Position numbers and translations under genes: made by a program
Shown: piece after piece, positions 32,030-49,730 of the stretch
How positions within the stretch are numbered: position 1 is the stretch's first letter
How the letters are laid out: every line of letters starts with the position of its first letter
Assembly: GCF_963664135.1 (NCBI RefSeq)
Contig: NZ_OY760905.1
Span: 1,364,001-1,428,000, forward strand
DNA length: 64,000 bases
Direction of reading: 5' to 3'
From: an uncultured Acetobacterium sp.
GTDB taxonomy: Bacteria > Bacillota > Clostridia > Eubacteriales > Eubacteriaceae
Notes under the pieces: model-generated
What the model saw: the letters and a program-made list of their open reading frames with translations, nothing else
Told to the model about the DNA's origin: nothing
Databases searched by the model: none

Positions 32030-32045
32030 TCTATTTGCTCCTATC

Positions 32046-32882
32046 TTATAACTCATGATGTTTCCATTGAATCGCAACACCGCCAACATCGGCATAGACA
32101 GTTTGAAGATTACCCAGTTTGTATTGACGTAAGCTCTCTTTTTTAATCTGATCTAAACTTCTAAGCACTTCTTCCGGGGTTAATTGATCCACCCGCACGA
32201 CGACTTCGAGATCGGCAATATCACTGTCAGGTTGAAGATTTCCAGCCCGATCAGTGATCACTGCCGCTGATTTAATATAAGACGTATTGGCGATATGAGT
32301 GGCACAAGCATCAGCGATACAGCAGCGTTTTGAAAAAACGGTCACGGCGTTGGCAATGCCCCGGGTAAAGCTGCGCCCCCCCAGACCACTGGTACACACC
32401 CCGCCAATGCCGTCTTCCGCCCGGATCGTGACGATGTTTTCCATTTTACCAGTCTCCACATTAGGCAGAATGCCTATTTTAACCGCCTCGTTTGCTGCTA
32501 GCCGGATGGCGATATCGCCACCGTTATTGACAATCGCTTTATCCACATCATGATCATAAAGCCAATCTGCCAGGGCATCCGAAAGCGTTCCGGCCACGGT
32601 TGCGATCGGGGTCAAGGTTGGTTCTTTAATCTGTTTCACCGACTTCACCATTCTTAGGGGCAGACCAGTTAAGATGCTGTTATCAATGCTTTCCGGATAC
32701 TGCGACAGGTACGGGCGTTCTCTTGAAATTTCGGCCAGCAACTCTGGAATGATTAGCGCCGCTTCCGAACATAGCTCGGTTTGAATCACGCCGTTTTTGC
32801 TGGCCATCATCACCATCGTCACCGGGCCGTAATCGACAAAAATGCGGCCATCACTAAGGATCTGAAAAGGCTGATCAATCAT
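32046..32882 (-). CDS. UPF0280/ApbE-like protein next to Hnr
   Basis: This 278-residue protein is of the UPF0280 family, distantly related to ApbE FAD:protein FMN transferases. Seen are TPIATVAGTLSDALADWLYD (near residue 92), KAIVNNGGDIAIRL (near 114) and CTSGLGGRSFTRGIANAVTV (near 160), the ApbE-like flavin site. It overlaps hnr by 4 bp. The E. barkeri 6-hydroxynicotinate reductase is, to my recollection, a flavoprotein with covalently bound flavin, so this protein may attach it. That is inference. Confidence 0.75.
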   Translation of the reverse strand: MIDQPFQILSDGRIFVDYGPVTMVMMASKNGVIQTELCSEAALIIPELLAEISRERPYLSQYPESIDNSILTGLPLRMVKSVKQIKEPTLTPIATVAGTLSDALADWLYDHDVDKAIVNNGGDIAIRLAANEAVKIGILPNVETGKMENIVTIRAEDGIGGVCTSGLGGRSFTRGIANAVTVFSKRCCIADACATHIANTSYIKSAAVITDRAGNLQPDSDIADLEVVVRVDQLTPEEVLRSLDQIKKESLRQYKLGNLQTVYADVGGVAIQWKHHEL

Positions 32883-34381
32883 TTTTGGTAGTCAGACACA
32901 TCTTTGATCTGATCCATGTGTCCACCCATGGCCTGATAGTCGGATTTTCTCATGGTATACTCCACCGGTGCCACGGTGGCTGGGGTCGGCACCCAGGTAA
33001 AGGCCTTGTTGACCACCTTTTCGGTATCCACGATAAAGTTGATCCCCCCGCCGGGATACACAAAGGCTGGCGCACCGCCAATCGTCAGGACGGCTTTCTG
33101 AGCGTGAACCGCTTCAGTGATTTTGACCGGATGGGTACAGACGCCGCCTCTGGCACTACCACCAGTTCCGCCGGTATAGAGCACCGAGGTCATCGAACGT
33201 TGGCAATTGTTTTGAATCGCCAACGCAACACTTAAGGCTGCCTCAGTCATGGGGATTTCTTTAAAGCGGCCATCATCAATCAGGGTAAACAGAGCAAAGA
33301 TTTCGCCGGTGGTGTTCACCACCATGACCTTGATCCCTGGTTTGGCAATGGTCATGTCACAGCCTTTAATGGCATCCCGTGGTGTCTCCAGAGTGGTTCC
33401 GCCGATGCCGTGGCCGTGTTCACCAAAATAGCGACCTCTTGAACTCTTAGCCGCATTGGGAATCACGCCGCTCCAGGTCATTCCCACCGCTTCACCAGCC
33501 AGATGCTCTGAGCACAGTCCGATGACATGATGATCGATGACGATACAGTCATCGACTGCATCCTTCATCAATTTGGCAAAAAGTCCCACGGTGGCACTGC
33601 CACAACCGATTCGCATGATGCTTTCTGCGGCACCATCGATGATCGGAGCCTTCCCCGCCGTTAGTTTGAGACTGGTCTTGCGGTTAACCTTCAGTTCCAC
33701 TTCTTCGCCATTGGCCAGTTCCACAATGGTTCGGGCGGTGGCAAATCCGGCTTCGCTGGTCAGCTTATTAGCCCCGCCGATGGCGATCATTTTTGATCCG
33801 TACTCTTCGGTATTGACCATGCCAACAATTTTATTGTCGCGATAGACTGGATCCCCCTCTTCACCAATATAGGTGTTGGTATCCAGCTTGACAATCAGGC
33901 CGCTGTAACTCAGCGGCGCTTCGGTGACCACCGTCACGACATCCACCCCATCCCGGCACTGGCTGACAATGTGGGGCGCCGGTTTAGAGCAGGGGTAATT
34001 GGTACCGGCACCGACGGCCGTGATAATCGGCGTGCGGATTTTCTCTTCGGCTTCCGGCAACACCTTGGGCGCAATCACCAGGGCTCGGTCGCGAACCAGT
34101 TTCCCAGCCACGTTCCGGTAACGGGTACAGGCTCCGGTCGCGCCAATTGGAACCTTGCATTGAATCGGACAGGAACTACAGATGGCTATCGCAACTTTTG
34201 CCGGAACCGGTAGGATCGCCTCAAATTTGCAGACCCGGCGGCATATGCCACATTCCACACAGCGATCTGTGATTTCAATCAGGGTAAGTTCATCCACTTT
34301 TTTTATCTCAACTGCTCCTACCGGACATTCTTTTACACACATTTTGCATTTTTTGCATTGATCTGCAGCTATTTCAAACAT
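32879..34381 (-). CDS. hnr: 6-Hydroxynicotinate reductase
   Basis: This 500-residue protein begins with a bacterial ferredoxin domain: two CxxCxxCxxxC sets (CKKCKMCVKECP near residue 8, CVECGICRRVCK near 41) and a third cysteine group, CSSCPIQC near 68. The remainder is a unique reductase domain with glycine-rich GGTGGSARGG (near 408). It uses reduced ferredoxin to convert 6-hydroxynicotinate to 1,4,5,6-tetrahydro-6-oxonicotinate, dearomatising the ring. It is translationally coupled to the UPF0280 gene. Confidence 0.9.
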   Translation of the reverse strand: MFEIAADQCKKCKMCVKECPVGAVEIKKVDELTLIEITDRCVECGICRRVCKFEAILPVPAKVAIAICSSCPIQCKVPIGATGACTRYRNVAGKLVRDRALVIAPKVLPEAEEKIRTPIITAVGAGTNYPCSKPAPHIVSQCRDGVDVVTVVTEAPLSYSGLIVKLDTNTYIGEEGDPVYRDNKIVGMVNTEEYGSKMIAIGGANKLTSEAGFATARTIVELANGEEVELKVNRKTSLKLTAGKAPIIDGAAESIMRIGCGSATVGLFAKLMKDAVDDCIVIDHHVIGLCSEHLAGEAVGMTWSGVIPNAAKSSRGRYFGEHGHGIGGTTLETPRDAIKGCDMTIAKPGIKVMVVNTTGEIFALFTLIDDGRFKEIPMTEAALSVALAIQNNCQRSMTSVLYTGGTGGSARGGVCTHPVKITEAVHAQKAVLTIGGAPAFVYPGGGINFIVDTEKVVNKAFTWVPTPATVAPVEYTMRKSDYQAMGGHMDQIKDVSDYQK

Positions 34382-34432: not shown

Positions 34433-35368
34433 TCAGCTGATTTTTAACTGTTCATCAAGATGAGTTTTTGAAGCTTTTAATATCACATTGTAAAGTTTGA
34501 TCCCGACGGATGAAATTGCAATCAATTCGGTTTTTGTCAATGCTTTTTCGGCCAGTTTGATTTCCATCCGTTCGTTCACCGCGCTGATTTCAAAATCACC
34601 ATCACTTGAGTGAATAAATCCCTTTAATCGGTAAGTTGATGGTATCGTTTCTTTCACGAATGCTTTGAGTTTCTCTAAATCCAGGGGTTCTGAGGCCTCC
34701 ATGGCAATGGTGACCGGTCTGGTTTCTGGGGTATTTGACGTTTCCTGATCCAGGTTTGACGGAACCGCTGTCGTTTCAAATAATCTTTCTACATTAAATT
34801 TACAGTAGGTGGTAACAATCACTTCCGCCCCGGCATTGAGTTCATGTACTTTTCTGATCAGCTCAGTCTTTGTTTCCAGATCAAACAAATCGGCCTTATT
34901 GACAAGAACAATACTGGAATATTCGACCTGACGTTTCAGGGCCGGCAGGATGCCGGACATTTTGATAAAGGTTTCGCCGTCGATCACACAAATCGATGCC
35001 TGATATTCATATTGATCATTGGTCTTTCGGCCGATGCCATCCAGAATCGTTTGAATATTCGACGGATCGGCCAAACCCGAGGCTTCAATAAACAACAGTT
35101 CCAGATCATAGGATGCCATGGCAATCAAACTATCCACAAACTTATCTTTGACACAGGCACAGAAGATCGAACCGTTTGACACTTCAGCCATCGTCATGCC
35201 TTCTTCTTCAACGAGCCGATAATCGATGTTCACCTTGCCAAAATCATTGACAATGACCCCAATTTTCCGGTTATGAAAAGACGACATCAACTCTTTGAGC
35301 AACGTCGTCTTTCCGGCGCCTAAAAAACCTGTCAGTAAACAGAGTTTTGTCTTTCGACCTTGCGCCAA
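34433..35368 (-). CDS. CobW/G3E-family GTPase (metallochaperone)
   Basis: The protein has a Walker A GFLGAGKTTLL at the start, Walker B-type EASGLADPS and NKAD motifs, and a C-terminal CobW domain. The cysteine motif between switch regions is CACV instead of the usual CxCC, so metal binding may differ. The start is uncertain: a TTG at 35368 lies 20 bp after the upstream stop and gives 311 residues, while an ATG at 35464 would overlap the upstream gene. It lies between the methyltransferase genes and hnr, and may load metal into either set. Confidence 0.78.
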   Translation of the reverse strand: MAQGRKTKLCLLTGFLGAGKTTLLKELMSSFHNRKIGVIVNDFGKVNIDYRLVEEEGMTMAEVSNGSIFCACVKDKFVDSLIAMASYDLELLFIEASGLADPSNIQTILDGIGRKTNDQYEYQASICVIDGETFIKMSGILPALKRQVEYSSIVLVNKADLFDLETKTELIRKVHELNAGAEVIVTTYCKFNVERLFETTAVPSNLDQETSNTPETRPVTIAMEASEPLDLEKLKAFVKETIPSTYRLKGFIHSSDGDFEISAVNERMEIKLAEKALTKTELIAISSVGIKLYNVILKASKTHLDEQLKIS

Positions 35369-35387
35369 GTCACAATTACATGTGATC

Positions 35388-36749
35388 TTATTCGAATAAT
35401 GCTTCAATTTCTTTGCGCAATTCCTCACTGTCGGGAATGATGGAAATATGTTTGATGACACCATTGATGCACATGGTTGGCAAATTGGTTATGCCCATTT
35501 TCCGGCATCGAACCACATTTTCGCGCTCTGTGTATTTGTATTCGATGATTTCGATTCTGTCCCCGAAATAATCTTTCGCTTTTTTGGCTGCTGCCATCAT
35601 ATAGGTACAGGCCGCACATTGAACCGAGTCCAGAGTGAATACCTCGATAAAGGGTATTTCTAGTTTATCGTAGTCTGGCAACTCAATGACGATGTCGCTG
35701 AGATCCGGCCCCTCGTAACCTTTGATCAATTCTCTGGCCTGTTCGGTGTTTTTAACTGCCTGGGAACAGGCAATCGTGTTTTCCAATGGCACATCATAGG
35801 GCATATCGCAGCCGGGACTGACGATCATATTGCGTTTATCCTCAATTGAGTCCAGTAATTCGACCACATATTTTAGATTGTCTTTGGTTTCACCATGAAG
35901 CATCACGGTTGTCAACGGAATATTGCCGCTGATGGCGATATTATAACGATCGGCAATTTCTTTACCCGCTTTATAATCCACATTTTCATCCACAGCAATA
36001 CTGTCCGGATAGGTTTTGCACATCACATCCAGCTGTGGGGTGGCGTTACCGCAGACAAAAAAGGAAGAGAACCGGTCTTTATTGCGGACATAGTCAAACA
36101 CATCTTTAAAAGCATCAGATAGCATCGATTCAAAAGATTCTGGTGCAATCTGGCTGACCAGGGGATCGACAACAGCGATCACGTCCATACCAGCTTCAAT
36201 ATAATAATCACACATCTTTATCGCCACTTCAGCACAGAAGTTGACCAGCTCGCGAACATAGTCTTCATCCATCAGCATATCCAGAAAAATGTCGGTGCCC
36301 CGCAAATGGGAAGCCAGCGTAAAAGGTCCGCAGATCAAACCGTACAGGGCGATATCATCTCCCACGGAAGCTTTAAGCTTGGTCATCGCTTCCAGCATCA
36401 CTGGAATCCGACCCGATGTTTTTTCTGGAATGGTACAGCGACAGGGAATCCCTTTGGCATCGCCTTCTAACGGATGAGAATCAACCGCTGGTGGATTGTC
36501 TTCTGCCCAGAGCAGCTTGCAGCCCATTATTTCTGCTTCCAATTGCAAATCAAACATGATTGGCATTCCATCCGGTCCGTATACTTTGGCAACCTCCATC
36601 AGCGATTCGTATAATTTTTGACCATCTTTAAGTATTTCTTCAGCAGTATAACCAGCAAGTTTGCCCGAATGAATCCCGGCAAATGGAACCCATGGCACCC
36701 GTTCTGTTTGCTCATGTCGCATTGTTTTAAAAATAAGTTCTTTTCCCAT
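35388..36749 (-). CDS. UroD-type corrinoid methyltransferase fused to a thioredoxin-like domain
   Basis: Residues 1 to about 345 match the MtaA/CmuA branch of the uroporphyrinogen decarboxylase fold, with LRGTDIFLDMLMDEDYVREL near 170 and a C-terminal PGCDMPYDVPLEN. The HxC zinc motif found in this branch reads FVC here (SSFFVCGNATPQL), so the His ligand is replaced. Residues about 365-453 form a thioredoxin-like domain with a CAAC pair near 384. It could move methyl groups between corrinoid protein and acceptor. The fusion and altered motif make its role uncertain. Confidence 0.75.
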   Translation of the reverse strand: MGKELIFKTMRHEQTERVPWVPFAGIHSGKLAGYTAEEILKDGQKLYESLMEVAKVYGPDGMPIMFDLQLEAEIMGCKLLWAEDNPPAVDSHPLEGDAKGIPCRCTIPEKTSGRIPVMLEAMTKLKASVGDDIALYGLICGPFTLASHLRGTDIFLDMLMDEDYVRELVNFCAEVAIKMCDYYIEAGMDVIAVVDPLVSQIAPESFESMLSDAFKDVFDYVRNKDRFSSFFVCGNATPQLDVMCKTYPDSIAVDENVDYKAGKEIADRYNIAISGNIPLTTVMLHGETKDNLKYVVELLDSIEDKRNMIVSPGCDMPYDVPLENTIACSQAVKNTEQARELIKGYEGPDLSDIVIELPDYDKLEIPFIEVFTLDSVQCAACTYMMAAAKKAKDYFGDRIEIIEYKYTERENVVRCRKMGITNLPTMCINGVIKHISIIPDSEELRKEIEALFE

Positions 36750-36803
36750 TAGTTATTCCTCCATATAATTGAATAATTGATTTAAATTCTTAGATATTTT
36801 TTG

Positions 36804-36976
36804 TTCAGTCAGATCCACTTATTTAAACCATTAAATTGAAAATTGGGGGTTATCAAGTGGCGCTGATTTGGATCATCAGCTGAAAGCGAATTGTTTAAAC
36901 AGTGCATCTGACTGAAGAAAAAAAATTGTTTATCAGGAGATGGGCACTTCGGAAACCCGAAGCTGCCCACATCCTG
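36804..36976. promoter_or_regulatory. Long inverted repeat and terminator between symporter and UroD-Trx genes
   Basis: TTCAGTCAGATCCACT (36804-36819) and AGTGCATCTGACTGAA (36901-36916) form an imperfect stem extended by TTTAAAC/GTTTAAA, enclosing about 60 bases with further pairing. Next to it CAGGAGATGGGCACTTCGG / CCGAAGCTGCCCACATCCTG (36934-36976) is a strong hairpin, followed on the minus strand by a T run, so it is a terminator after the symporter gene. The rest of 36750-37015 shows no gene. Confidence 0.6.
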
Positions 36977-37015
36977 GTGTTAAATGTTTAATAATCTTAC
37001 AATTGTTCGATCGCT

Positions 37016-38548
37016 TTATTCTTGTACATCATAAAAACGATTGTTTGCCCGTTCGTATGTAAGATAAAATTCTTTAGAGTCCGCTTCATCCTGTTGGGTA
37101 AACAGGCTGACCACAACCATCGTAATGGCTGCACCGAAGAGGCCAATCGCGCCATACCAGGTATCTCCCAGATGCCATACTGAATATGTCAAGATTACCA
37201 GAATTGTTCCAATAATTGTCGCGGCAATTGCCGCTTGTTTTGTCGCTTTTTTCCAATAAAGTCCAAAAACAAGAACTGGAAACAAGGGCATTACAATTGC
37301 GATGGAGAACATAATCAAGGTGAAAATCAGTTCTGGTGGGTTGAGCGCAATTACCAACGAACCTAATCCCAATACAGCAATGATGATTCGGTTGACCATG
37401 CTTTCTTTTTCCTTAGGAACATTGATATGGAAGGTATTTTTAATCAAATCCGACGATACAATTCCGGATGCAACTGTCAAGAACGCATTGGCGGTGGATA
37501 AACCTACTGCCAGTGCACCAACGAAGAAACCAACCATCATAAAAACGGCGAGCGTTGGATTAAATGCGGTCACAAAATTATGAATCATATACGGAATAAT
37601 TAATTCGGTATCTGCTTTTGCCAGGTCACTGACTAAAGCCAGACCGATCAAACCTATTAACATCGTTCCTGTCCATACTACGGCCTGAAGAATCGGTGTC
37701 ATATAAGAAAGTTTTCGTTGCGATTTCAGATTGTCACCAAAATACCCCGCTCGAACAAATACATGGGGTAGCATGATTGTCCAGCCGATGGCACAGGCGA
37801 ACGGATAGCCAAAACGCGAAGCATTGGTGACCCATCCATCGGGACCAGGATACGAGAAGAAGGCTGGCGAATTCGCCCATAAGGTATCGACCGCCGCACT
37901 CAGCGATCCGCCAAAACCAACGATCAGGCAGGCGATAACGATAAACCATAACAATCCGATGAATAATAATCCCTGAACCGTATCGGCTGTTGCCGCTGAT
38001 TTAACTCCGCCAACACAGACAAAGATGGTCATGATCAAACCGACGACAATTACTGCCATTTGATAATTAATTGCACCACCAGTTGCATAATTGGCGGCAT
38101 TAGCAATTGCCACAAGCACCGATGAAATATAGGGAAACGATGCAGCCAGGAAGATCAGCCCCAAAATCGTCCGCAGTACCGGACTTTTAAACCGTTCATA
38201 GTAAAAATCAGCCGGTGTAACAAAATCGCCACCTTTTTCCTGATTAATCAGCCATACCTTGTTCATCGTAAAGTGTGCAATGATCGGAAACAATGCGATA
38301 TAGCTCATTTCCGAGAGCCAGTACCCCATCCCACCCCGGTAGTAAGCACCCGGCCCGGCAAAGAAAACCCAGGTACTCATCAGCGAGGCAATATATGTCA
38401 TAACCAATATTGGCCATGCCACACTCGTTTTTAATAAGCTTTCACTTTCATTTTGCTTTTTTTCTTTTTGGGTAACATAAAATGCAACACCCAGTAGAAA
38501 ACACATGTAGACGGCAAAAGCGACCCATATTGTTGTTGAACTTAACAT
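37016..38548 (-). CDS. Sodium:solute symporter (SSS family)
   Basis: This 510-residue protein has about thirteen membrane helices, FAGPGAYYRGGMGYWLSEMS (near residue 64) and the SSS signature-like ADTVQGLLFIGLLWF (near 188). It overlaps the DUF3311 gene by 7 bp. The PanF-type pair (small protein plus SSS) imports small carboxylates with sodium. Position between mttB and the nicotinate genes makes a nicotinate betaine or nicotinate the best guess for its substrate. Confidence 0.85.
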   Translation of the reverse strand: MLSSTTIWVAFAVYMCFLLGVAFYVTQKEKKQNESESLLKTSVAWPILVMTYIASLMSTWVFFAGPGAYYRGGMGYWLSEMSYIALFPIIAHFTMNKVWLINQEKGGDFVTPADFYYERFKSPVLRTILGLIFLAASFPYISSVLVAIANAANYATGGAINYQMAVIVVGLIMTIFVCVGGVKSAATADTVQGLLFIGLLWFIVIACLIVGFGGSLSAAVDTLWANSPAFFSYPGPDGWVTNASRFGYPFACAIGWTIMLPHVFVRAGYFGDNLKSQRKLSYMTPILQAVVWTGTMLIGLIGLALVSDLAKADTELIIPYMIHNFVTAFNPTLAVFMMVGFFVGALAVGLSTANAFLTVASGIVSSDLIKNTFHINVPKEKESMVNRIIIAVLGLGSLVIALNPPELIFTLIMFSIAIVMPLFPVLVFGLYWKKATKQAAIAATIIGTILVILTYSVWHLGDTWYGAIGLFGAAITMVVVSLFTQQDEADSKEFYLTYERANNRFYDVQE

Positions 38549-38772
38549 TTTTCATCCCCTTTACTATCATTATTCGTATCTCGCAGTTTATAAACCTTGT
38601 AAACTTTGTGCATCCCGACATAAACGGCAATCCACAGGGGAATAATGGTCAATGCTGCATGCAGCAACATCGGCCCGGCCTCATTGTAGGCTGGTAACCC
38701 GGGGAAGTTATACAAAGCGTATAACGCGGTAACAACGACCAGCCATATTTTTTCAGATTTTGTGACTCTCAT
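38542..38772 (-). CDS. DUF3311-type small membrane protein, symporter partner
   Basis: This 76-residue protein has two membrane helices (LVVVTALYALYNFPGLPAYN and MLLHAALTIIPLWIAVYVGM) and a charged tail. Such proteins precede SSS transporter genes and are probably an accessory subunit. The 7 bp overlap with the symporter gene implies coupled translation. Confidence 0.75.
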   Translation of the reverse strand: MRVTKSEKIWLVVVTALYALYNFPGLPAYNEAGPMLLHAALTIIPLWIAVYVGMHKVYKVYKLRDTNNDSKGDEKC

Positions 38773-38837
38773 TTTCGTTTTCCCTTTCTGTTTGGTTTTT
38801 TGTTATCTACTTTTTGTCGCTAATTTTATTTGAACGA

Positions 38838-40292
38838 CTATTTTACAAGCGCTTCATGGGCACGTTTCAGAACTTCTTCAACTGCTACAGCTTTATCTGC
38901 TGCCAGTTCATAAGTGCTTTCAGCATCCATAATCTCATGATATTTTTCCAGTGCTTTATCGGTTAAGGTTTTACAGCCTTCAGCTTCCCAATGAACAACG
39001 CCATCACGGTTGAACATATCCGGTCGATGCGGTTCCATAAAATGACGACCGGTGTGTGGACTCATCAGATAGCTGAATGACGGATCTTTGTCGAGGCAGG
39101 CAAATATTTCTTCCACATTGATGGTTTCAACATTAACCTCCAGTCCTCGGCGGATCCGCTGTGCGATGCCAAAGATTTCATTGTCAATGATCAACTGAAG
39201 TGGACTGATGGTTTTAGCGGTTTCCAACTGACCCGCGCCGCCTAAAACAGAAGCTGCTGACATCGCCATGGCATCGATCAGATTGGTTCTTTCGATAAAG
39301 TTCTGAGCATCCATATCCAGACTGTCGGTTCCTGTTCCGTAAGAATGAGCCCGAATGTTATAGCCGTTTTCGAATAATTCCATGGTAATCAATCGAGCGA
39401 TGGTGATTTCCGTATTCGACTGAAGGGTATAGGTGGTCATCATGTCCATAGAGAACAATAACGGTGTGGCAATGACTGGCAAACCCGGGCAGAGCAATTC
39501 CAGCATGATGATCATTGCCAGAATTTCTGCACAGGCGATAAACGCCGTTCCCTGAGCCGTGACCGGGGTGTTGGCTCCAGCTGTCGGCAATGAGCACGGT
39601 TGAACGGGAACACCGGCTTTGGCACAGCGGTAGAGAATTTCTGCATCCATATACTTGTAAGTTAAACATGGTACACTGCAGGCAATAAAGCTGACAATCG
39701 GCTTTTTCTGCAATTCTTCGAGGCCACCGGCTGCAGCAGCTGACATATCGATCAGATACTGAACGTTATCTGCTTCATAAGGCTGTACCCAGATATGTTT
39801 TTCAGACAGTTTAAGCGCTTTTTCCAGGGTGTACACATCAACGGCATCCCCCGGCACATATTCCCCGGAGGTGCTTGGCAGGGTCACAAAGTCAATATTT
39901 TCCATTGCATTGGTCAGTTTATACCACTCAACCACTTCCTCCAAGGTGGTGTAATGGGTATCGCCATTAATATCACGGTAGTTTGGTGCGCCAGTATTGG
40001 TACGGGCATAAAATTTTCCCTCTGGATTGGGGAATTCAAGATCTCTGGTTCCGGCTGGTGAGTACAGGGTAAATTTTTCCGGAACTGCTGCAATCGCCTT
40101 GTCGATCAGTTCTTTGGTGAATTTGAGATCTCTGGTTTCCATATCGACGATACAGCCAAGTTCTGCCAATTCACTGAGCATTTCATCATGATCCAGATGA
40201 ATCCCTCTTTCAATCAATAAACGCTCAATTTCGTTTTTCAGGAATGATAATTCCTCATCATTCATCACATCGTATTTTACTCTGCCTAACAT
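38838..40292 (-). CDS. MttB-family (non-pyrrolysine) corrinoid methyltransferase
   Basis: This 484-residue protein has the MttB trimethylamine methyltransferase fold: IERLLIERGIHLDHDEMLSE N-terminus, DLKFTKELIDKAIAAVPEKF, NTGAPNYRD (near residue 98), and PVSFI-like core strands up to HWEAEGCKTLTDKALEKYHE. The frame is continuous, so there is no amber-encoded pyrrolysine; such members demethylate quaternary amines such as glycine betaine, proline betaine or carnitine. It is 24 bp after a corrinoid protein gene and upstream of a transporter and the nicotinate cluster. Trigonelline is the substrate I propose from context. Confidence 0.85.
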   Translation of the reverse strand: MLGRVKYDVMNDEELSFLKNEIERLLIERGIHLDHDEMLSELAELGCIVDMETRDLKFTKELIDKAIAAVPEKFTLYSPAGTRDLEFPNPEGKFYARTNTGAPNYRDINGDTHYTTLEEVVEWYKLTNAMENIDFVTLPSTSGEYVPGDAVDVYTLEKALKLSEKHIWVQPYEADNVQYLIDMSAAAAGGLEELQKKPIVSFIACSVPCLTYKYMDAEILYRCAKAGVPVQPCSLPTAGANTPVTAQGTAFIACAEILAMIIMLELLCPGLPVIATPLLFSMDMMTTYTLQSNTEITIARLITMELFENGYNIRAHSYGTGTDSLDMDAQNFIERTNLIDAMAMSAASVLGGAGQLETAKTISPLQLIIDNEIFGIAQRIRRGLEVNVETINVEEIFACLDKDPSFSYLMSPHTGRHFMEPHRPDMFNRDGVVHWEAEGCKTLTDKALEKYHEIMDAESTYELAADKAVAVEEVLKRAHEALVK

Positions 40293-40316
40293 ATCTGTTT
40301 CCTTTCGGTTTATAAT

Positions 40317-40955
40317 TTATAAGCTTGTAACATATGCCTTTGACCATACAGCCGCGCCTGCGGCATCTGCGGCAAAGCCGTCCGCACCAATCTTGTCAGC
40401 CCACCCCTGAGTAACCGGAGCGCCGCCGATCAATACTTTCACCTGGTCACGCACACCGGCTTCTTCCAGAGCTTTGATGACGTGACCCTGTTCGTTCATC
40501 GTGGTAGTCAACAGTGCCGATAAACCAATAATTTGCGGTTTGTGTTCCTTGATCCCCTCAATAAACTGTTCGGCAGTAACGTTTGCCCCCATATCGACAA
40601 CATCGATGTTGGCGCTGCGCATCATCAACACAACCAGTTTTTTACCAATATCGTGCAAGTCGCCTTTGACTGTTCCGACAATGGCTTTACCAACAGTTGT
40701 GGGGCCTTCAGATTCCAGTAAGGGCTTGATGACATCTACCCCTTCATTCATTGCTTTAGCTGCCATCAGAACCGTTGGAACAAATATTTTACCTGCCCCA
40801 AACCGGGTTCCAATTTCGTTAATCCCTACCATCAGTCCTTCATTCAGAATCTCTGAGGCGCTCACCTTTTCTTCTAAAGCAAGTTTTACCTTAGCGACGG
40901 TACCTTCTACATTTCCTGCGATCACAGCTTCGCTGATCTCATTTAATATTGACAT
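40317..40955 (-). CDS. Corrinoid protein (MttC/MtgC-like)
   Basis: This 212-residue protein has an N-terminal helical cap and a C-terminal B12 domain with GDLHDIG (His ligand motif DxHxxG, near residue 101), ALLTTTMNEQ and GGAPVTQGWADKIGADGFAA. It carries the methyl group on cobalt between methyltransferases. It lies directly upstream of the MttB gene, the usual cognate pairing. Confidence 0.92.
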   Translation of the reverse strand: MSILNEISEAVIAGNVEGTVAKVKLALEEKVSASEILNEGLMVGINEIGTRFGAGKIFVPTVLMAAKAMNEGVDVIKPLLESEGPTTVGKAIVGTVKGDLHDIGKKLVVLMMRSANIDVVDMGANVTAEQFIEGIKEHKPQIIGLSALLTTTMNEQGHVIKALEEAGVRDQVKVLIGGAPVTQGWADKIGADGFAADAAGAAVWSKAYVTSL

Positions 40956-41033
40956 ATTTTCCTCCTCTTGGATCTTTCCTGATTCTTTTTTATCAAAAGG
41001 CCGTTAAGCCATTTTAATTTTTTTCTGGAATAC

Positions 41034-41669
41034 TCAATCTTGAATTTTCAAAATTTTATCCATACCATCAATGGCATTGTCAGCGTATACCGCTCCAATC
41101 TCTTTGGCAAATGCCTGAGTAATCGGTGCCCCGCCAACAATAATCGTGACCTTCCAATCAAATTGATGATCTTTAATTTCTTTAACAATCTTGCGCATAC
41201 TCATCATTGCTGTGGTAAGCATGGCGGACATCATCACAAATCTTGCCTGGTGTTTGGTAATGGCCTCGATAAACTCTTTTTCCGAGATATTCGTGCCCAA
41301 ATCAATCACCGTAAAACCAACACTCTCAAGCATAATGGAAACAAGGGTTTTTCCAATGGTATGAATATCGCCCTTGACCGTTCCAATAACCACGGTTTCT
41401 GAAGTCACCATCTTTTTTTCAAGCTGACTCAGATAAGGTTTCAAGACGTCTATACCAGCCTGCATAGCACGTGTGGACATTAAAACCTGGGGAATAAAAC
41501 TTTTCCGGTTTGTTAATAACACCCCGCATTTGTCCATGGCCGGAATCATACTCTTTTCCAAAATCTCCATTGGGTCATATCCCATTGACAAACACTCACG
41601 GCATAACTCAACCGTACAAACCTCATCTCCTTCGATTATCTTTTGAAATATTTTTTTCGTTGGCAACAT
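41034..41669 (-). CDS. Second corrinoid protein (MttC-like)
   Basis: This 211-residue protein has the same layout as its neighbour: helical cap (AMDKCGVLL ... QVLMSTRAMQAGIDVLKPYL), GDIHTIG cobalt-ligand motif near residue 99 and GGAPITQAFAKEIGAVYADN near 177. It is the first gene of the minus-strand operon, with AGGAGG 7 bp before the ATG. Two different corrinoid carriers in one operon suggest two methyl donors or one for each methyltransferase (MttB and UroD-Trx). Confidence 0.92.
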   Translation of the reverse strand: MLPTKKIFQKIIEGDEVCTVELCRECLSMGYDPMEILEKSMIPAMDKCGVLLTNRKSFIPQVLMSTRAMQAGIDVLKPYLSQLEKKMVTSETVVIGTVKGDIHTIGKTLVSIMLESVGFTVIDLGTNISEKEFIEAITKHQARFVMMSAMLTTAMMSMRKIVKEIKDHQFDWKVTIIVGGAPITQAFAKEIGAVYADNAIDGMDKILKIQD

Positions 41670-41703
41670 TGTGTCCTCCTGACTGTTAAACCAATTAACA
41701 CCG

Positions 41704-41757
41704 ATTATACTGAGATTCTCGTAATAACTATAGAAAATGCACTACAAGTCTTTGTAG
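41704..41757 (-). promoter_or_regulatory. Promoter and activator-site candidate of the methyltransferase operon
   Basis: On the minus strand TATAAT (41704-41709) lies about 35 bp before the start of the first corrinoid gene, with no good -35 box. A perfect palindrome CTACAA-GTCT-TTGTAG (41742-41757) lies about where an activator would bind upstream of a weak -35. The divergent PocR-AraC protein is the likely activator. Confidence 0.5.
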
Positions 41758-41812
41758 AATTGTAATACGTTTTTAAAAACTATGGAATCTAAATCCTGAT
41801 TTTACATTTTTC

Positions 41813-41880
41813 TTGACAAAAACCGACGTTTTGGTAAAATATTGCTGTAAATTTAATATGAGATAGCAAACTTACCAAAA
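41813..41880 (+). promoter_or_regulatory. Sigma-A promoter and inverted repeat of the regulator operon
   Basis: TTGACA (41813-41818) and TAAAAT (41835-41840) are 16 bp apart and point to the PocR-AraC gene. TTTTGGTAA (41829-41837) and TTACCAAAA (41872-41880) form an inverted repeat spanning the transcription start, a possible autoregulatory operator or leader hairpin. The intergenic 41670-41978 contains nothing else recognisable. Confidence 0.6.
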
Positions 41881-41978
41881 ACATTGTTCAAAAATCTTTA
41901 TTATGCAAATATCTTATACTCACCACCCCCTTTTAAACATCAATTGGCCAATTAAATTCTCAAACACAGAGGAGTCGA

Positions 41979-43238
41979 ATGGAAGAGCACATTGAAAAAC
42001 TGAATGAAACCTTATCCGCTTTTTGCGCCTGTACCAACGTCCCCGTCACAGTATATAAACCCTCTGGTGAAACGATGCTGACCTTCTTACCAGAGCTGAA
42101 GTTTTGCTCAATTTTCAACGATCCAGACGGAAAACTTAATAAAAAATGCATTGATACGCTGTCTTTTTCTGCTCAGTTCTCCGCTAACCTGGGCGAGCCC
42201 TATATCTTCACCTGTCCGGCCAACTTTATTAATATTGCAATACCAGTCATTATCGATAAAAAACACTTTGCTAGCATAATTATCGGTCCCCTAGTGATGG
42301 GGAATTTCAATGAAATCTATTTAGACAAAGTCTTTGAACTTTATCCCGACTCACAAACGTTGCTCCCCAAAATATCACTTGCCATTTCCAAATTGATCAT
42401 ATATAATTCCAGTCATATTCAGAGCCTGTCCACCTTGATGTTCAATCAGCTGATTGGAACTTTCAAGAATTGGCATGATTATGAGCATCTCAATGCCCGT
42501 TACCAGAGCCAGCTTTACATCGGTGATCAGATAAAAAAATATAAAAACAGATCCATCGCCACCCGTGAAGATGTCTCGACCTTAACGGCATTGGAGCACA
42601 AATTAATCCACTTCATAGAGGAACGGAACAAAGAGAAGGCACATGACATTCTGACCTTGTACTACGATGAAGTTCTCATCATCGAAGGTGGCAATTTTGA
42701 TAATATCAAGGGTCGGATCTTTGAATTATTTGGAACTCTTTCCCAGCAGGCTCTTGATAGTGGCGCTTCGATTCAAAAAATCTTCAGCCTGGATTTTAAT
42801 AAAATCTTTGCCATGAGTCAGGTACAAAGTGTCACCGAACTTTTCAATTGGATCGTCTACCTGATTAATCACTTTATTGACAATGTATACAGTTCCCTGA
42901 TTCTTGTACAATCAAAAATTATTAAACAGGCTCTTGTATTCATCAACGATTCCTATTGTGAAAAAATCAGCCTCAATGACCTGGCGACCCATCTCCATAT
43001 GAGCAAAGCCTATCTGTCAAAACTTTTCAATCAAGAAGTTGGCGTCAATTTCACCACTTACCTTAATGACAAGCGAATTCAGAAGAGTCTGGAATACCTT
43101 GAGGATAACGACATGACTCTCGCTGATATTGCCTTGCAGGTCGGTTTTGAAGATCAGAGCTATTTCACTAAAGTATTTAAAAAACTACTGGGGGAAACCC
43201 CCAAAGAATACCGGAAACGATTCACTGCCCAACAGTAA
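41979..43238 (+). CDS. PocR-domain AraC-type transcriptional regulator
   Basis: This 419-residue protein has an N-terminal PocR sensor domain (ETLSAFCACTNVPVTVYKPS, FTCPANFINIAIPVIIDKKH with conserved cysteines), a middle helical region, and an AraC double HTH at 315-415 (ISLNDLATHLHMSKAYLSKL and ADIALQVGFEDQSYFTKVFK). PocR domains sense small organic compounds in propanediol and methyltransferase systems. Divergent to the corrinoid operon, it probably activates both directions in the presence of the methylated substrate. Confidence 0.88.
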   Translation: MEEHIEKLNETLSAFCACTNVPVTVYKPSGETMLTFLPELKFCSIFNDPDGKLNKKCIDTLSFSAQFSANLGEPYIFTCPANFINIAIPVIIDKKHFASIIIGPLVMGNFNEIYLDKVFELYPDSQTLLPKISLAISKLIIYNSSHIQSLSTLMFNQLIGTFKNWHDYEHLNARYQSQLYIGDQIKKYKNRSIATREDVSTLTALEHKLIHFIEERNKEKAHDILTLYYDEVLIIEGGNFDNIKGRIFELFGTLSQQALDSGASIQKIFSLDFNKIFAMSQVQSVTELFNWIVYLINHFIDNVYSSLILVQSKIIKQALVFINDSYCEKISLNDLATHLHMSKAYLSKLFNQEVGVNFTTYLNDKRIQKSLEYLEDNDMTLADIALQVGFEDQSYFTKVFKKLLGETPKEYRKRFTAQQ

Positions 43239-43258
43239 AAAAATGATTGGAGTTCAAT

Positions 43259-43894
43259 ATGGTTGTCTTTACTCAAACAGAATTTATTTATGATAAAGAT
43301 CGGATTTTTCGTCAGCTGCATTTGAAAGAAAATGAAAATGCCACCAAATATACCCATCAAGTTTTTCCCAAACTCATTCAGTTTGCCAAGGAACAGCTGG
43401 AAATCACCACCTGTTATTGCATCCTGAAAAATAGCACTCAACTTAATCTTCCAAATATCGATTGCTGCCAGCACGTAGTTTTATGTTTTTGTTCCTGCTC
43501 AAATAGAATTGACCGTTTCATCGAGGATTTGCTTCAAAAGGATGAATTTCTGGACGGATTTCTGTTAAATCATATTTCAAACGAAATACTATTTAATGCA
43601 TCAAATCAGATGAATACGCAACTTGAAAACACCCTAAACCATTTAGGTTTAAAACTGACCAAGCGACATTCCCCCGGTGAAGACGAGATTGATCTGCAAT
43701 TTCAGGAAAGCATCCTCCAGGGACTGAAAAACGAAACTCCAATTAACGCCAGTCTGACTGAAAACTATATGCTCGAGCCTGAAAAATCAATGTTGTATTA
43801 TTTTGGTGCCGATTCTGAGATTGAATCGCATTCGACAAAACACGATTGCAAAACATGTCATTCAACGAACTGTCCTCATCGACTTGTTGACTGA
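43259..43894 (+). CDS. MetH-activation-domain-like protein
   Basis: The start at 43259 follows TTGGAG by 8 bp and gives 211 residues. The sequence is cysteine-rich at the end (HDCKTCHSTNCPHR) and resembles the vitamin B12-dependent methionine synthase activation-like proteins encoded beside RACE genes in acetogens. It probably assists reduction or binding of the inactive corrinoid protein. It sits 21 bp after the regulator and 26 bp before the RACE gene. Confidence 0.6.
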   Translation: MVVFTQTEFIYDKDRIFRQLHLKENENATKYTHQVFPKLIQFAKEQLEITTCYCILKNSTQLNLPNIDCCQHVVLCFCSCSNRIDRFIEDLLQKDEFLDGFLLNHISNEILFNASNQMNTQLENTLNHLGLKLTKRHSPGEDEIDLQFQESILQGLKNETPINASLTENYMLEPEKSMLYYFGADSEIESHSTKHDCKTCHSTNCPHRLVD

Positions 43895-43920
43895 ATTCTA
43901 TAACGAATACGAGGTAAATT

Positions 43921-45657
43921 ATGTATAAAATTTCATTTATTAATCAAAACAAGTCCCTCCGTGTTAATGGCGGCACCCTTGCCAATGCCTGCACTGAAGC
44001 GGGATTCCCCCTTGATCTTGTTTGCGGCGGCAAGGGAACCTGCGGCAAATGTTCTGTCAGTATTGAATCGAATGGCCAGAAACGAAATGAGCTAGCCTGC
44101 AAGTTTGAAATCTCAGAAGATCTGACAATCTATCTTGAAAGCGCGCAATTTCTTGACCAGGCTTCTCTGCTTACTGATCACCTTAAGCCCCAGCAAATCA
44201 GTTTTAATCCATCCCTTTCAAAGACTCATTTTCTACCTTCAGAAATGACGCCTGAGCTCTATGATGACCATCTGCTGAACGCTAGCGTCCCCCTGCTTCA
44301 AAAATTTTCCGAAATCATCAATGACGCTGACAAAGATGGCTTTACTGCCGTTTATCACCAGGAGCAAATCATTGATTTCCACCCCGGCGATACCAGTGAA
44401 TGGCTATATGGTGGAGCAATTGACATTGGCACCACCAGTGTCGTTCTCTATATCTACGACTTGAACAACGGAGAATTGATCCAGACCGAGTCCTCATTAA
44501 ACAAGCAGATCAACTTCGGAGCTGATGTTATCTCCCGGATACTCTTTTGTCAGGAACAGGATTCCGCTTTAGCAGAGCTGAATCGCTGTATCCTATCTAC
44601 CATCGACAACTTGCTTGAAAAATGCTATCTCAATCACCCCCATTTGCGTGCTCATCTCTATCAATTGATCCTCTGCGGCAATAGCACCATGCAGCATCTG
44701 TTTTTTAAGCTAAATCCTATTGCCCTGGGCGTTTTTCCCTTTTCCAATATCACCCAAAACAGCATCCTTACTCATAATGTCCACTGTGGCCTTAACCTTC
44801 CCGATTTTTCTATCATTGAATTTTTACCGCTTTTAGGCGGTTTTGTTGGAGCTGATACAACAGCAGTTCTTTTAACCTTACCTCAGGATGAAAAAAAATA
44901 CCTGATGATTGATCTTGGCACCAACGGTGAAATAGCGGTTGGGAATACCCAGCAGTTTTATACCGCGTCCACTGCCTGCGGGCCGGCTCTTGAAGGCGCC
45001 AATATCGAATGTGGGATGCGTGCCTGTGAAGGTGCCATTGAAAAAATTACTCTTGATAATGATGTAATTTCCATTAAGGTCATCGGCGACATAGATCCCA
45101 TTGGACTATGCGGTTCTGCTATTGTTGATGCCGTTGCAGTTTTAAGAACCGCGGGAATCATTGATGAAACTGGCTATTTTCTGACCCCTGACGAATACCA
45201 TGAAAAACATCCAAACAGCTTATTGATAGCTCAGCTGGCTCTGTTAGAAACAGACGATGTTGTCTTTTACTTTTCCAGCGGGAAGGTACCGGTTTTTATT
45301 TCTCAAAAAGATGTCAGACAAATTCAATTGGCCAAAAGTTCCATCTTTTCCGGGTGCATGACCTTGTTAAAGGAATGTAATCTGACCCTGGATGATATAG
45401 ATGAGCTCGTCCTGGCCGGAGCTTTCGGTAATTTTATCGATATCAACAATGCTTTGGCCATCGGTCTGCTGCCGCCGATGCCAACTGAAAAAATCATTTC
45501 AATCGGCAACGGTGCCGGACATGGTGTGCAACTTTGTCTGCTAAACCAACATGAAAACAAGCGAACAAAATCCATTCAAGCCCGGACAAAACAAGTCAAG
45601 CTGGCCGACAGTCCCGATTTCATGGAAGCCTATATCATGAACATGAACTTCAACTGA
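43921..45657 (+). CDS. Reductive activator of corrinoid enzymes (RACE, RamA-like)
   Basis: This 578-residue protein has an N-terminal [2Fe-2S] ferredoxin domain (CGGKGTCGKC near residue 35, fourth Cys near 60), a linker, and a C-terminal ASKHA ATPase region (GGAIDIGTTSVVLYIYDLNN near 162, LMIDLGTNGEIAVG near 328). It uses ATP to drive reduction of Co(II) back to Co(I) when the corrinoid protein is accidentally oxidised. AGGT precedes the ATG. It serves the corrinoid proteins encoded just across the divergent promoter. Confidence 0.92.
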   Translation: MYKISFINQNKSLRVNGGTLANACTEAGFPLDLVCGGKGTCGKCSVSIESNGQKRNELACKFEISEDLTIYLESAQFLDQASLLTDHLKPQQISFNPSLSKTHFLPSEMTPELYDDHLLNASVPLLQKFSEIINDADKDGFTAVYHQEQIIDFHPGDTSEWLYGGAIDIGTTSVVLYIYDLNNGELIQTESSLNKQINFGADVISRILFCQEQDSALAELNRCILSTIDNLLEKCYLNHPHLRAHLYQLILCGNSTMQHLFFKLNPIALGVFPFSNITQNSILTHNVHCGLNLPDFSIIEFLPLLGGFVGADTTAVLLTLPQDEKKYLMIDLGTNGEIAVGNTQQFYTASTACGPALEGANIECGMRACEGAIEKITLDNDVISIKVIGDIDPIGLCGSAIVDAVAVLRTAGIIDETGYFLTPDEYHEKHPNSLLIAQLALLETDDVVFYFSSGKVPVFISQKDVRQIQLAKSSIFSGCMTLLKECNLTLDDIDELVLAGAFGNFIDINNALAIGLLPPMPTEKIISIGNGAGHGVQLCLLNQHENKRTKSIQARTKQVKLADSPDFMEAYIMNMNFN

Positions 45658-45991: not shown

Positions 45992-46819
45992 TCACATACC
46001 AATTGATTTCTTTGACAAATAATTAAGAATTGCCTCCAGAACGCCGCCGCTTAAGTTCCTGGCCTTATCGGAAATGGTATAGCAATAGTCAGCTTTACCT
46101 CGGGGATCCACATCGGCAATTTTCATCCCTTCAAAAACCCGGCTACCATCTGCGATTATTCCTCGAACGACGCCGGCGATTGTTGTGGTGACTTCTCTGT
46201 CACCAATGGTGGCCAGACAATCCCCAGAATCTACTGAAGTGCCAATATCCCGAACAATCCTGATGATACCTGCTAGCGGTGCACGGATCACGCGCTCATG
46301 GGTATATCCATCAATGCTTCCTGGAATACCCGTGTTTTTGGCAGCTCCGCCACAATAAATCACCCGACCCAGATCATGCCCTCGGTTTGTTTCTATGACA
46401 ACATCCACATCTATACCAGCAGTAAATCCCGGTCCCAAACCAATCACAAAGGGCGCCATTGCCCGGGTTGTACCCAAATTTTTTTTTGCCAGGATCGCAT
46501 CAACTACCGCAAGGGGCTTAAGATGCTTGATCCAATTTGCTTCCGGATCGACACAGATCGGGATTTTTCCGGCCGCCAGTGTTTTTATGATACTATCTTC
46601 CGTATCACACCGAAGCGCTGTCAATCCTTCCAGCGTTGACTCACCTTCTGTCACAGCTGATGCATAAGCGGCTGTTCTGCGGATGACAGTGGGTTTATCC
46701 ACTTCTAAAGCCATCACCGCAAATCCTGCTTGAAAGAGACGGTAAATCGTACCGCTGGCAATATCCCCCGCACCGCGGACAATAACGAGATTTTTAGATT
46801 CATTGCTGTTTTTCGGCAT
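45992..46819 (-). CDS. yqeB: Selenium-dependent molybdenum hydroxylase maturation protein
   Basis: This 275-residue protein of the YqeB/EF2563 family has an N-terminal Rossmann motif VRGAGDIASGTIYRLF, an RRTAAYASAV strand and a C-terminal beta domain (RAPLAGIIRI ... GDREVTTTIAGVVRGI). The family marks genomes with selenium-labile molybdenum hydroxylases. The only such hydroxylase here is nicotinate dehydrogenase NdhFSLM at 27.5-31.1 kb, so this is the probable client. It overlaps mocA by 20 bp. Confidence 0.85.
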   Translation of the reverse strand: MPKNSNESKNLVIVRGAGDIASGTIYRLFQAGFAVMALEVDKPTVIRRTAAYASAVTEGESTLEGLTALRCDTEDSIIKTLAAGKIPICVDPEANWIKHLKPLAVVDAILAKKNLGTTRAMAPFVIGLGPGFTAGIDVDVVIETNRGHDLGRVIYCGGAAKNTGIPGSIDGYTHERVIRAPLAGIIRIVRDIGTSVDSGDCLATIGDREVTTTIAGVVRGIIADGSRVFEGMKIADVDPRGKADYCYTISDKARNLSGGVLEAILNYLSKKSIGM

Positions 46820-47396
46820 AGTTCAATAACCTCCAATAGTCTGCTTTTGAATCCATGTCCATGACACAGGTCACATCTCCCGGGATCCGGATCACCGCTT
46901 CAGGATAGCTGGTAATTAGCCGCCTTCCACCGATATCACCGTTCTGATCCTCAAGCTCGGCAAACCATGATGACCCAAAACCAACCGGATGACCCAATGC
47001 TCCCTGGTGCTCCGGCACTATTATCGCTTCTGGGCTGGTGTTTAAACGTCTAATCACTTCGTTGATCAAACATGTTTGAGTCAGCGGATGATCTCCCAGA
47101 AAAACCAGTACCCCCTGACAATGTGGAAAGTGAGACCGGAGATAAGCAATCCCCAGTCGCAGCGATTCTGACTGACCCTTTTGGGGCGTTCTATTGAGGA
47201 TGACCGTGACGTTAGCGGGTAAATCAAGTGCCTCCCGAATTTCCAGTCGTGTAACCACCACCAGATAATCCAGAGCATCTTGGGGAATTCGCGACAACGT
47301 GGCTTCCAAAACAGTGCCCTGCCCGAAGGGAAGCAATAGCTTCTCCTCTCCCATCCGACTGGAAAGCCCAGCCGCCAATACAATACCTGCTAACAT
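46800..47396 (-). CDS. mocA: Molybdenum cofactor cytidylyltransferase-like protein
   Basis: This 198-residue nucleotidyltransferase has LAAGLSSRMGEEKLLLPFGQ (nucleotide-binding loop, residues 8-27), VLFLGDHPLT near 97 and GHPVGFG near 127. The MocA/YgfJ family adds CMP to molybdopterin, making the cytosine dinucleotide found in nicotinate dehydrogenase. GGAAGG lies upstream of the start. It is cotranscribed with yqeB. Confidence 0.85.
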   Translation of the reverse strand: MLAGIVLAAGLSSRMGEEKLLLPFGQGTVLEATLSRIPQDALDYLVVVTRLEIREALDLPANVTVILNRTPQKGQSESLRLGIAYLRSHFPHCQGVLVFLGDHPLTQTCLINEVIRRLNTSPEAIIVPEHQGALGHPVGFGSSWFAELEDQNGDIGGRRLITSYPEAVIRIPGDVTCVMDMDSKADYWRLLNYAEKQQ

Positions 47397-47822: not shown

Positions 47823-48743
47823 CTATCTTCTATCTTTCTTTTTCTGCGCCTCTTCCATAATGTTCTTCAGAGTCAGCAGCAAGGGGTTGCTTTGGCTGTT
47901 GCTGAGGGCATCCTTGGAATAGGTCAGTCCTGTCATCGAGTTAGCTTCACAGATGTAATAAGTGTCATTTTCGCCAAACAGAAAATCAATGCTACCAAAG
48001 TAGATATCCAGTACCGCGGCAGCGTTTTCGGCAATTTCCACTACCTCAGCCGGTGGCGTAATAAACTGCAGATCGCCCCCCTGAGAAAGATTGGATTTAA
48101 AGTTATCGCCATTGTCACGGATATAAGCGGTTGAGAATTTTCCGCCGCTTAACATAATCCGCATATCCCGGCCTTTTGAGGCAGCAATGCATTCCTGAAT
48201 CAGAATATGATCATCAAAATTCATGGCGGCGTAAATATCTAGGATGTTTTCCAGTTCTTTTTCGGTTTTGATCTGAACAACCCCTTTTCCTTTGCTGCCA
48301 TGCATTACTTTGACCACACAGGGCAGCCCCAGTTCACTGGCAATAAAAGACGGTTTAGTTTTGGGGGTCATCAGCACCGTTTTAGGGAATAAAAAGCCCT
48401 GATTGGCGGCTCCCAGTTTTTGAAAGGTCAACAGTTTGTCGGCGGTGTTGTTCAGGCTTTCGGAACTGTTAACACACAGCACATCCAGTGATTCCAGCAT
48501 TTTGACAACGGCCTTGCTATGATAGTTATTCCCGCCGAAAAAAGCTGACAGCGAAAAGTCGGGAACGTCCACCGCTTCGCCACCGATAAAACAGTGTTGG
48601 CTTTCACTCGGATCGCACATCACCTGAACCTCGCTAACATCGACAGTTCTGATATTGACGCCCATCTTTTCAATTAGCGCAATAATTGTCTGGATCGATG
48701 GTTCTTCAAGGGTTTCGTGATTGACTAATAACCAACCTAGCAT
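47823..48743 (-). CDS. RimK-like ATP-grasp ligase, second copy
   Basis: This 306-residue ATP-grasp protein has PCVVKVMHGSKGKGVVQIKT (ATP-binding loop near residue 137), ILIQECIAAS (near 178), the FKSNLSQGGD loop (near 216) and a metal site FGENDTYYICEANSMTG (near 260). The family joins a carboxylate to an amine through an acyl phosphate, as in RimK, LysX and glutathione synthase. It overlaps the first copy by 7 bp and shares its length and N-terminus (GWLLVNHETLEEPSI). Product unknown. Confidence 0.82.
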   Translation of the reverse strand: MLGWLLVNHETLEEPSIQTIIALIEKMGVNIRTVDVSEVQVMCDPSESQHCFIGGEAVDVPDFSLSAFFGGNNYHSKAVVKMLESLDVLCVNSSESLNNTADKLLTFQKLGAANQGFLFPKTVLMTPKTKPSFIASELGLPCVVKVMHGSKGKGVVQIKTEKELENILDIYAAMNFDDHILIQECIAASKGRDMRIMLSGGKFSTAYIRDNGDNFKSNLSQGGDLQFITPPAEVVEIAENAAAVLDIYFGSIDFLFGENDTYYICEANSMTGLTYSKDALSNSQSNPLLLTLKNIMEEAQKKKDRR

Positions 48744-49660: not shown

Positions 49661-49730
49661 TTTAACCTCCTGAATTTTAAAATAATCACAAACGTTTATT
49701 GCTTCGACGTCTGTTTTCATAAACAACCAG

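Follow-up and report, generated by a model that had tools for sequence, protein, structure and literature searches.

A probable trigonelline demethylation module ahead of a nicotinate fermentation cluster in an uncultured Acetobacterium

Introduction

Trigonelline (N-methylnicotinate) is abundant in plants, for example in coffee and legumes. The classical nicotinate fermentation pathway starts at nicotinate, without a demethylation front end. The described quaternary amine demethylases of the MttB superfamily (MtgB, MtpB, MtcB, MtyB, and MthB) share a non-pyrrolysine MttB domain, a corrinoid partner, a reductive activator of corrinoid proteins (RACE), and a nearby transporter. Here, we analyzed a 64,000-nucleotide stretch of DNA from an uncultured Acetobacterium sp. 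(contig NZ_OY760905.1, positions 1,364,001 to 1,428,000; hereafter, the window, in whose coordinates positions are given). Nine genes at 34433–45657 combine the parts of such a demethylase system and adjoin a nicotinate fermentation cluster. They probably constitute a trigonelline demethylation module ahead of nicotinate fermentation, a reading to which we assign a probability of about 0.74.

In the accessible text of a 2025 paper (PMC12155760), six MttB-superfamily members have an identified physiological substrate. None of the substrates named there is aromatic, and those other than phosphocholine are quaternary amines with a carboxylate, a feature compatible with trigonelline, which is itself a carboxylate-bearing quaternary amine. 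In the accessible text of PMC10805028, trigonelline is described as a possible, still unknown aromatic methylamine. An aerobic degradation of trigonelline, in which TgnA/TgnB open the ring first with an oxygenase, is cited in the accessible part of PMC8269262 (Perchat et al. 2018). The route considered here has the same substrate, but demethylation would come first and no oxygen would be needed.

Results

Open reading frames and family searches define the nine genes as follows.

34433–35464, minus strand: CobW-type GTPase (PF02492, 138 bits)
35388–36749, minus strand: UroD/MtaA-like methylcobamide methyltransferase with a thioredoxin-like C-terminal stretch (PF01208, 174 bits)
37016–38548, minus strand: SSS sodium:solute symporter, proposed trigonelline importer (PF00474, 109 bits)
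38838–40292, minus strand: MttB-superfamily methyltransferase without pyrrolysine, proposed trigonelline:corrinoid methyltransferase (PF06253, 185 bits)
40317–40955, minus strand: corrinoid protein 1, proposed methyl acceptor of MttB (TIGR02370, 206 bits, just below the cutoff of 215)
41034–41669, minus strand: corrinoid protein 2 (MtgC-like, 169 bits, below the cutoff of 370)
41979–43238, plus strand: PocR-AraC transcriptional regulator (PF10114 and PF12833)
43247–43894, plus strand: orphan protein of 215 residues between the regulator and activator genes (no family match)
43921–45657, plus strand: RACo/RamA-type reductive activator of corrinoid proteins, RACE (PF14574, 242 bits; PF17651, 145 bits)

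The six minus-strand genes run head to tail into the nicotinate cluster, and the three plus-strand genes are divergent from them. The whole window sits in a single contig of 4,084,676 bases. An earlier inspection of the letters of this DNA (the sequence-only reading) had described an MttB module lying head to tail with, or divergent from, a complete nicotinate fermentation cluster, and the open reading frames and families confirm this arrangement. Every gene named in that reading is present in its place; the CobW GTPase and the orphan protein were left unnamed. Its description of the MttB as non-pyrrolysine also holds. The MTTB domain (PF06253, cutoff 25 bits) spans residues 6–477 of 484, and the reading frame contains neither an internal stop nor an in-frame amber codon, which rules out a pyrrolysine enzyme. 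The corrinoid proteins and the reductive activator lie near this MttB, as in the non-pyrrolysine MttB superfamily.

This gene order, from the regulator block past hnr, the gene for 6-hydroxynicotinate reductase (Hnr), to the mutase gene, recurs in Acetobacterium bakii DSM 8239 (G009), Eubacterium aggregans SR12 (G025), and a third genome (G031), with unmatched stretches of 1–3 kb inserted in places. The enamidase of G031 is identical over 385 residues to that of the solved structure 2VUN, which we take to be the Eubacterium barkeri enzyme; therefore, G031 is probably E. barkeri, the classical nicotinate fermenter. The E. barkeri nicotinate cluster has the same kinds of enzymes as the window, and in G031 this MttB module likewise precedes hnr. 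A fourth genome (G015) retains part of the order: the end of mttB (131 residues, broken at a contig end), the symporter gene, and hnr. The block is therefore not a chance neighborhood.

A scan of named genomes gave at least four loci, in E. aggregans, A. bakii, and two Lachnospiraceae metagenome-assembled genomes (MAGs), S1R and S22M, whose MttBs are 73% and 56% identical to that of the window, respectively. In S1R, the genes for a corrinoid protein, MttB, the symporter, and Hnr lie in a row, and MttB and the symporter precede hnr, as they do in the Eubacteriaceae genomes. In S22M, mttB adjoins a gene for the same kind of symporter. After these two genes, at 13497–16484 of the S22M locus (L060, MAG S22M_St_6), there is a 996-residue open frame with RACo and UroD-type domains, which could be a fusion of the activator and the second methyltransferase.

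Further genomes show other arrangements. In G377, the order is a sigma-54-type regulator, a corrinoid protein, mttB, the symporter, a pterin-type methyltransferase, ndhSLM, ena, hnr, and the remaining genes; the gene between the symporter and ndhS encodes a methyl-tetrahydrofolate:corrinoid-type methyltransferase (357 bits, cutoff 259). One 5.6-kb contig of G107 carries, in this order, the end of a symporter gene, ena, hnr, and the start of an mttB, and another contig holds the start of a second mttB copy behind a regulator that is 63% identical to that of G377. In four genomes of survey family f112 (G428, G467, G468, and G472), the module and hnr lie on separate contigs; the module contains the UroD-type gene in three of the four and is broken by a contig end in the fourth.

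The module partners recur across these loci. Corrinoid protein 1 is encoded beside MttB in G009, G025, G031, the four f112 genomes, S1R, and G377. Corrinoid protein 2 is found in the first seven of these, with a 38% match in the S1R cluster. Copies of the orphan protein (31–84% identical) occupy the same place in G009, G025, G031, G428, G467, G472, and S1R; the protein from the window gave no NCBIfam match at E 0.001 and no Pfam match at E 0.01. The symporter gene adjoins mttB even in f112, where another contig holds the nicotinate genes, and in S22M, where no nicotinate genes were found.

To measure co-occurrence, we surveyed 471 genomes: the window genome and 60 relatives, 397 others drawn evenly from the phylum, and 13 more from three targeted families. 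Genomes with at least 43% identity to the window MttB were counted as MttB-positive. Hnr-positive genomes were, among the window genome and its relatives, those with the six long matches (55–100% identity), and elsewhere those with matches at E 1e-40 or better; in 56 of the 61 genomes of the former group there is some Hnr match, which mostly covers just the first 60, ferredoxin-like residues. The sensitivity of the search differed across the parts of the survey, in which a single protein, a four-row profile, and a seven-row profile were used.

Eleven genomes are MttB-positive, including that of the window (G000, G009, G015, G025, G031, G428, G467, G468, G472, G377, and G107), and they are spread over four survey families (f1, f112, f43, and f62). 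All eleven have Hnr, compared with 24 of the 471 genomes overall (Fisher test, P = 4e-16; all P values are uncorrected for relatedness). One of the 24, G102, has hnr as two contig-end pieces. Within the phylum draw alone, Hnr is present in 3/3 MttB-positive genomes versus 14 of the 397 (P = 3.5e-5). G107 was counted by two contig-end MttB fragments (44–45%), which are 98.9% identical to each other and 58% identical to the G377 enzyme. Without it, the figures are 10/10 in the full survey and 2/2 in the phylum draw (P = 0.0012).

The surroundings of hnr (9.6–20 kb) in all 13 Hnr-positive, MttB-negative genomes contain no module gene except for a 26% symporter match in G171, while ena is present near hnr in every one of them. 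Nicotinate fermentation itself therefore needs no module. Some of these genomes carry more distant MttBs elsewhere. Together with the arrangements described above, these module-free stretches make the module look like an optional front end to nicotinate fermentation, in which the symporter goes with MttB. The conserved order, the co-occurrence with Hnr, and the lack of the module around the hnr of MttB-negative genomes rule out a chance neighborhood.

A midpoint-rooted FastTree tree was built from 86 MttB-like sequences, MtgB, and the pyrrolysine MttB, with MtpB, MtcB, MtyB, and MthB outside the tree. The window MttB falls in its own 14-member clade (support 1.0), within which the enzymes of the Eubacteriaceae, S1R, f112, and S22M group together at 0.995. 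A separate clade (support 1.0) holds MtgB and seven other sequences. Over 434 aligned positions, the window MttB shares 21.9% identity with MtgB. Its best sequence match among solved structures is the pyrrolysine MttB (PDB 7XCL; 25.6% identity, 140 bits), whose pyrrolysine position aligns with a glycine in the window enzyme. Among plasmid records, the best 20 of 109 matches have 28% identity or less.

The accessible text of PMC6855144 gives Y94, N199, R309, and H345 of MtgB as residues proposed from models to bind glycine betaine. By sequence alignment only, the window MttB has T100, C205, H316, and either G351 (HMMER) or G352 (MAFFT) at these positions. The window genome has five MTTB genes, and one of the paralogues (L001) keeps Y, N, R, and H there. 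L001 is 68.8% identical to MtgB and groups with it, and is 22% identical to the window MttB. The separate clade, the replaced residues, and the low identity speak against a glycine betaine enzyme of the MtgB type. An AlphaFold2 model of the window MttB, made from five sequences, was too poor to be used (mean predicted local distance difference test score 58.3; residues 318–385 and 398–463 were among the stretches below 50).

The UroD-type protein scores 158 bits against the MtaA/CmuA family TIGR01463 (below the cutoff of 235), and its best solved relative is the methylcobalamin:coenzyme M methyltransferase 4AY7. Its thioredoxin-like tail (residues 368–449) matches TIGR00411 at 26 bits, below the cutoff. 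The CobW and UroD-type genes share 77 bases, and 51 bases separate the CobW gene from hnr. As a guess, the CobW protein might supply zinc to the UroD-type enzyme as a chaperone. In the spacers between the corrinoid genes and hnr, a consensus scan, which is weak evidence, gave no minus-strand site resembling a terminator.

The nicotinate fermentation set occupies the minus strand from hnr (32879–34381) down to position 15200. Nicotinate dehydrogenase (Ndh), Hnr, enamidase (Ena), 2-(hydroxymethyl)glutarate dehydrogenase (Hgd), the mutase, the isomerase, the dehydratases, and the lyase are all present. Ena and NdhL were identified by solved relatives, and several others by family plus position.

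32879–34381, minus strand: 6-hydroxynicotinate reductase, Hnr (ferredoxin-like N terminus; named from its place in the nicotinate cluster)
32046–32882, minus strand: ApbE-like protein, kept beside hnr (PF02424, 27 bits)
31124–32095, minus strand: 2-(hydroxymethyl)glutarate dehydrogenase, Hgd (related family TIGR01505, 276 bits, below the cutoff of 341)
27471–31124, minus strand: nicotinate dehydrogenase NdhF, NdhS, NdhL, and NdhM (molybdenum hydroxylase subunits)
26257–27417, minus strand: enamidase, Ena (2VUN match over 386 residues, 707 bits)
25654–26235, minus strand: AA_synth-family protein (PF06684, 222 bits)
23674–25518, minus strand: 2-methyleneglutarate mutase (B12-binding mutase C-terminal domain TIGR00640, 66 bits; specific name by position)
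22375–23529, minus strand: 3-methylitaconate isomerase (PrpF/oxalomesaconate tautomerase families, below cutoff; specific name by position)
20935–22371, minus strand: GlmL-family mutase accessory protein (TIGR01319, 291 bits, cutoff 204)
20024–20896, minus strand: 2,3-dimethylmalate lyase (PrpB-like, 302 bits, below the cutoff of 354; specific name by position)
18602–20014, minus strand: 2-(hydroxymethyl)glutarate dehydratase (weak serine-dehydratase-like match, TIGR00718, 29 bits; named by position)
15200–17022, minus strand: 2,3-dimethylmalate dehydratase, small and large subunits (LeuD/LeuC-type aconitase families; specific name by position)

NdhL matches chain A of 3HRD at 750 bits over nearly its full length, as does the enamidase with 2VUN, and the enamidase is 83% identical to that of G031. 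A cation/proton-antiporter-like gene, recognized by eye, lies inside the cluster (17064–18371); between the corresponding genes of G015, there is no match above 40%. The window genome has three matches to acetyl-CoA synthase (CdhC), which fits an acetogen.

On its other side, the module adjoins genes (45992–47396) for YqeB (367 bits, cutoff 220), which serves the maturation of selenium-dependent molybdenum hydroxylases, and for a MobA-like nucleotidyltransferase; this fits a selenium-dependent nicotinate dehydrogenase. This pair is also found near the module in A. bakii, and weaker matches lie near hnr in G358 and G261. Further along, at 47823–56816 on the minus strand, two RimK-like ATP-grasp genes, two ABC-transporter-like genes (by eye), and two GH3-family genes stand in a row and may form a small biosynthetic and export cluster. 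A 783-residue protein with a Big_2 domain is encoded at 57568–59919.

Discussion

From the genomic context, we infer that the betaine is N-methylnicotinate, and the import, the methyl acceptor, and the regulation can be proposed on the same basis. The sodium symporter would import trigonelline, and MttB would position it close to corrinoid protein 1 with its corrinoid in the reduced Co(I) state. By analogy with the known MttB-superfamily demethylases, Co(I) would take the methyl group from the pyridinium nitrogen and leave nicotinate. The methyl group would then be handed to tetrahydrofolate, by the UroD-type enzyme or by a pterin-type one encoded elsewhere, and enter acetate synthesis by the Wood-Ljungdahl pathway. 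This second methyl transfer could take more than one form, as the UroD-type protein has a thioredoxin-like tail and a coenzyme M methyltransferase (4AY7) as its best solved relative, while G377 has a pterin-type gene; tetrahydrofolate is therefore a tentative acceptor. The RACE protein would rescue oxidized corrinoid, and the PocR-AraC protein would turn the gene set on. Nicotinate would then yield pyruvate and propionate by way of Ndh, Hnr, Ena, Hgd, and the mutase steps. The whole route would be free of oxygen, and both the methyl group and the ring would be usable as food.

Compared with the known demethylases of the superfamily, of which MtgB was the one compared directly, the window MttB has a predicted aromatic N-methylpyridinium substrate and is encoded beside a ring-fermentation pathway. 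The observed gene content and synteny, the co-occurrence with Hnr, the differences in clade and in residues, and the acetyl-CoA synthase genes support trigonelline demethylation as the best available interpretation. The sequence-only reading had reached the same substrate. Of the checks that it proposed, the phylogeny, with MtgB and the pyrrolysine MttB as references, comes out in its favor by setting the window MttB apart from MtgB, and the genome survey bears out the pairing of mttB with the nicotinate genes, all surveyed carriers having Hnr and the genes being physically joined in several ways. That reading also knew of no description of the route. In the open-access literature, as far as its text was accessible and with most subscription papers outside this scope, we found no description of anaerobic or corrinoid-dependent trigonelline demethylation, and no such route is described in the accessible texts of PMC13222342, PMC12482172, and PMC10104139.

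Several observations weigh against this interpretation. Thirteen of the 24 genomes with Hnr have no window-type MttB, and the three targeted families were surveyed because each already had a positive member. A looser cut that admits G168 (33–34%, no Hnr) lowers the count to 11/12 (P = 5e-15). One exception was met outside the 471 genomes: the S22M genome, a MAG of unstated completeness, has no Hnr at E 1e-20. The gene set also varies, since G015 lacks the UroD-type and CobW genes between the symporter and hnr, and the S1R stretch showed no UroD-type gene. In the tree, the node that places S22M outside the rest has a support of only 0.251, and the nicotinate-linked MttBs do not form one exclusive branch: the G377 enzyme groups (0.967) with those of G107:C42 and G168, which lie among other genes. 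The clade residues compared with MtgB, to which the window MttB is 22% identical, were chosen from alignment columns that do not vary among seven members, and their invariance therefore partly reflects this choice.

The substrate might instead be another N-methylated pyridine or nicotinate derivative that still feeds the nicotinate pathway; N1-methylnicotinamide and an N-methylated hydroxynicotinate are examples. All that the genomic evidence fixes is a product that should enter nicotinate fermentation, and the MttBs of G107:C42 and G168, encoded beside molybdenum hydroxylases and a cytosine/purine-type permease, indicate that the branch may be broader. However, no nicotinamidase was recognized among the cluster genes, the rest of the genome not having been searched for one, and the carboxylate common to the substrates other than phosphocholine in the accessible text of PMC12155760 also speaks against this possibility, which we consider unlikely.

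An aliphatic betaine (glycine betaine, proline betaine, or carnitine) as the substrate is quite unlikely. The nicotinate genes would then adjoin mttB only because both sets are catabolic and were gained together. The presence of five MTTB genes in the window genome, the frequency of other MttB relatives in the bacterial family, and the S22M MttB without Hnr are in line with this explanation. It does not readily account for Hnr in all of the surveyed carriers, in several different gene arrangements and even where the module and hnr lie on different contigs (f112). Moreover, the window genome already has a 69% identical MtgB (L001), and in the presumed E. limosum group genomes (g5), the matches listed have 28% identity or less to the window MttB. 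It is very improbable that the module aids the nicotinate pathway in another way, with methyl groups as an extra electron source or sink and without making nicotinate; acetogens do link fermentations with the oxidation of methyl groups and with acetate synthesis, but the pathway lacks the module near hnr in 13/13 MttB-negative genomes, and the dedicated MttB and symporter would be left unexplained.

Two MttB relatives (33–37%) at G107:C42:38001–56105 (L099) and G168:C3:1–14000 (L128) lie near the molybdenum hydroxylase and permease genes mentioned above, and the G168 locus also holds a hydantoinase A-like gene. These enzymes are possibly demethylases of other N-methyl heterocycles. Tentatively, and at slightly less than even odds, the whole MttB branch may consist of enzymes for N-methylated aromatic nitrogen rings, with a trigonelline arm and a second arm (G107:C42 and G168) for other N-methyl heterocycles.

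If trigonelline is the substrate, a substrate would be assigned to an MttB clade, and the module and the cluster would form a complete anaerobic pathway for a plant betaine, in which adjoining gene sets use the methyl group and the ring separately. The proposal would be testable by growth in the culturable species A. bakii, E. aggregans, and E. barkeri. If the broader reading of the MttB branch is also true, corrinoid enzymes would give acetogens access to plant pyridinium betaines by a route that needs no oxygen.

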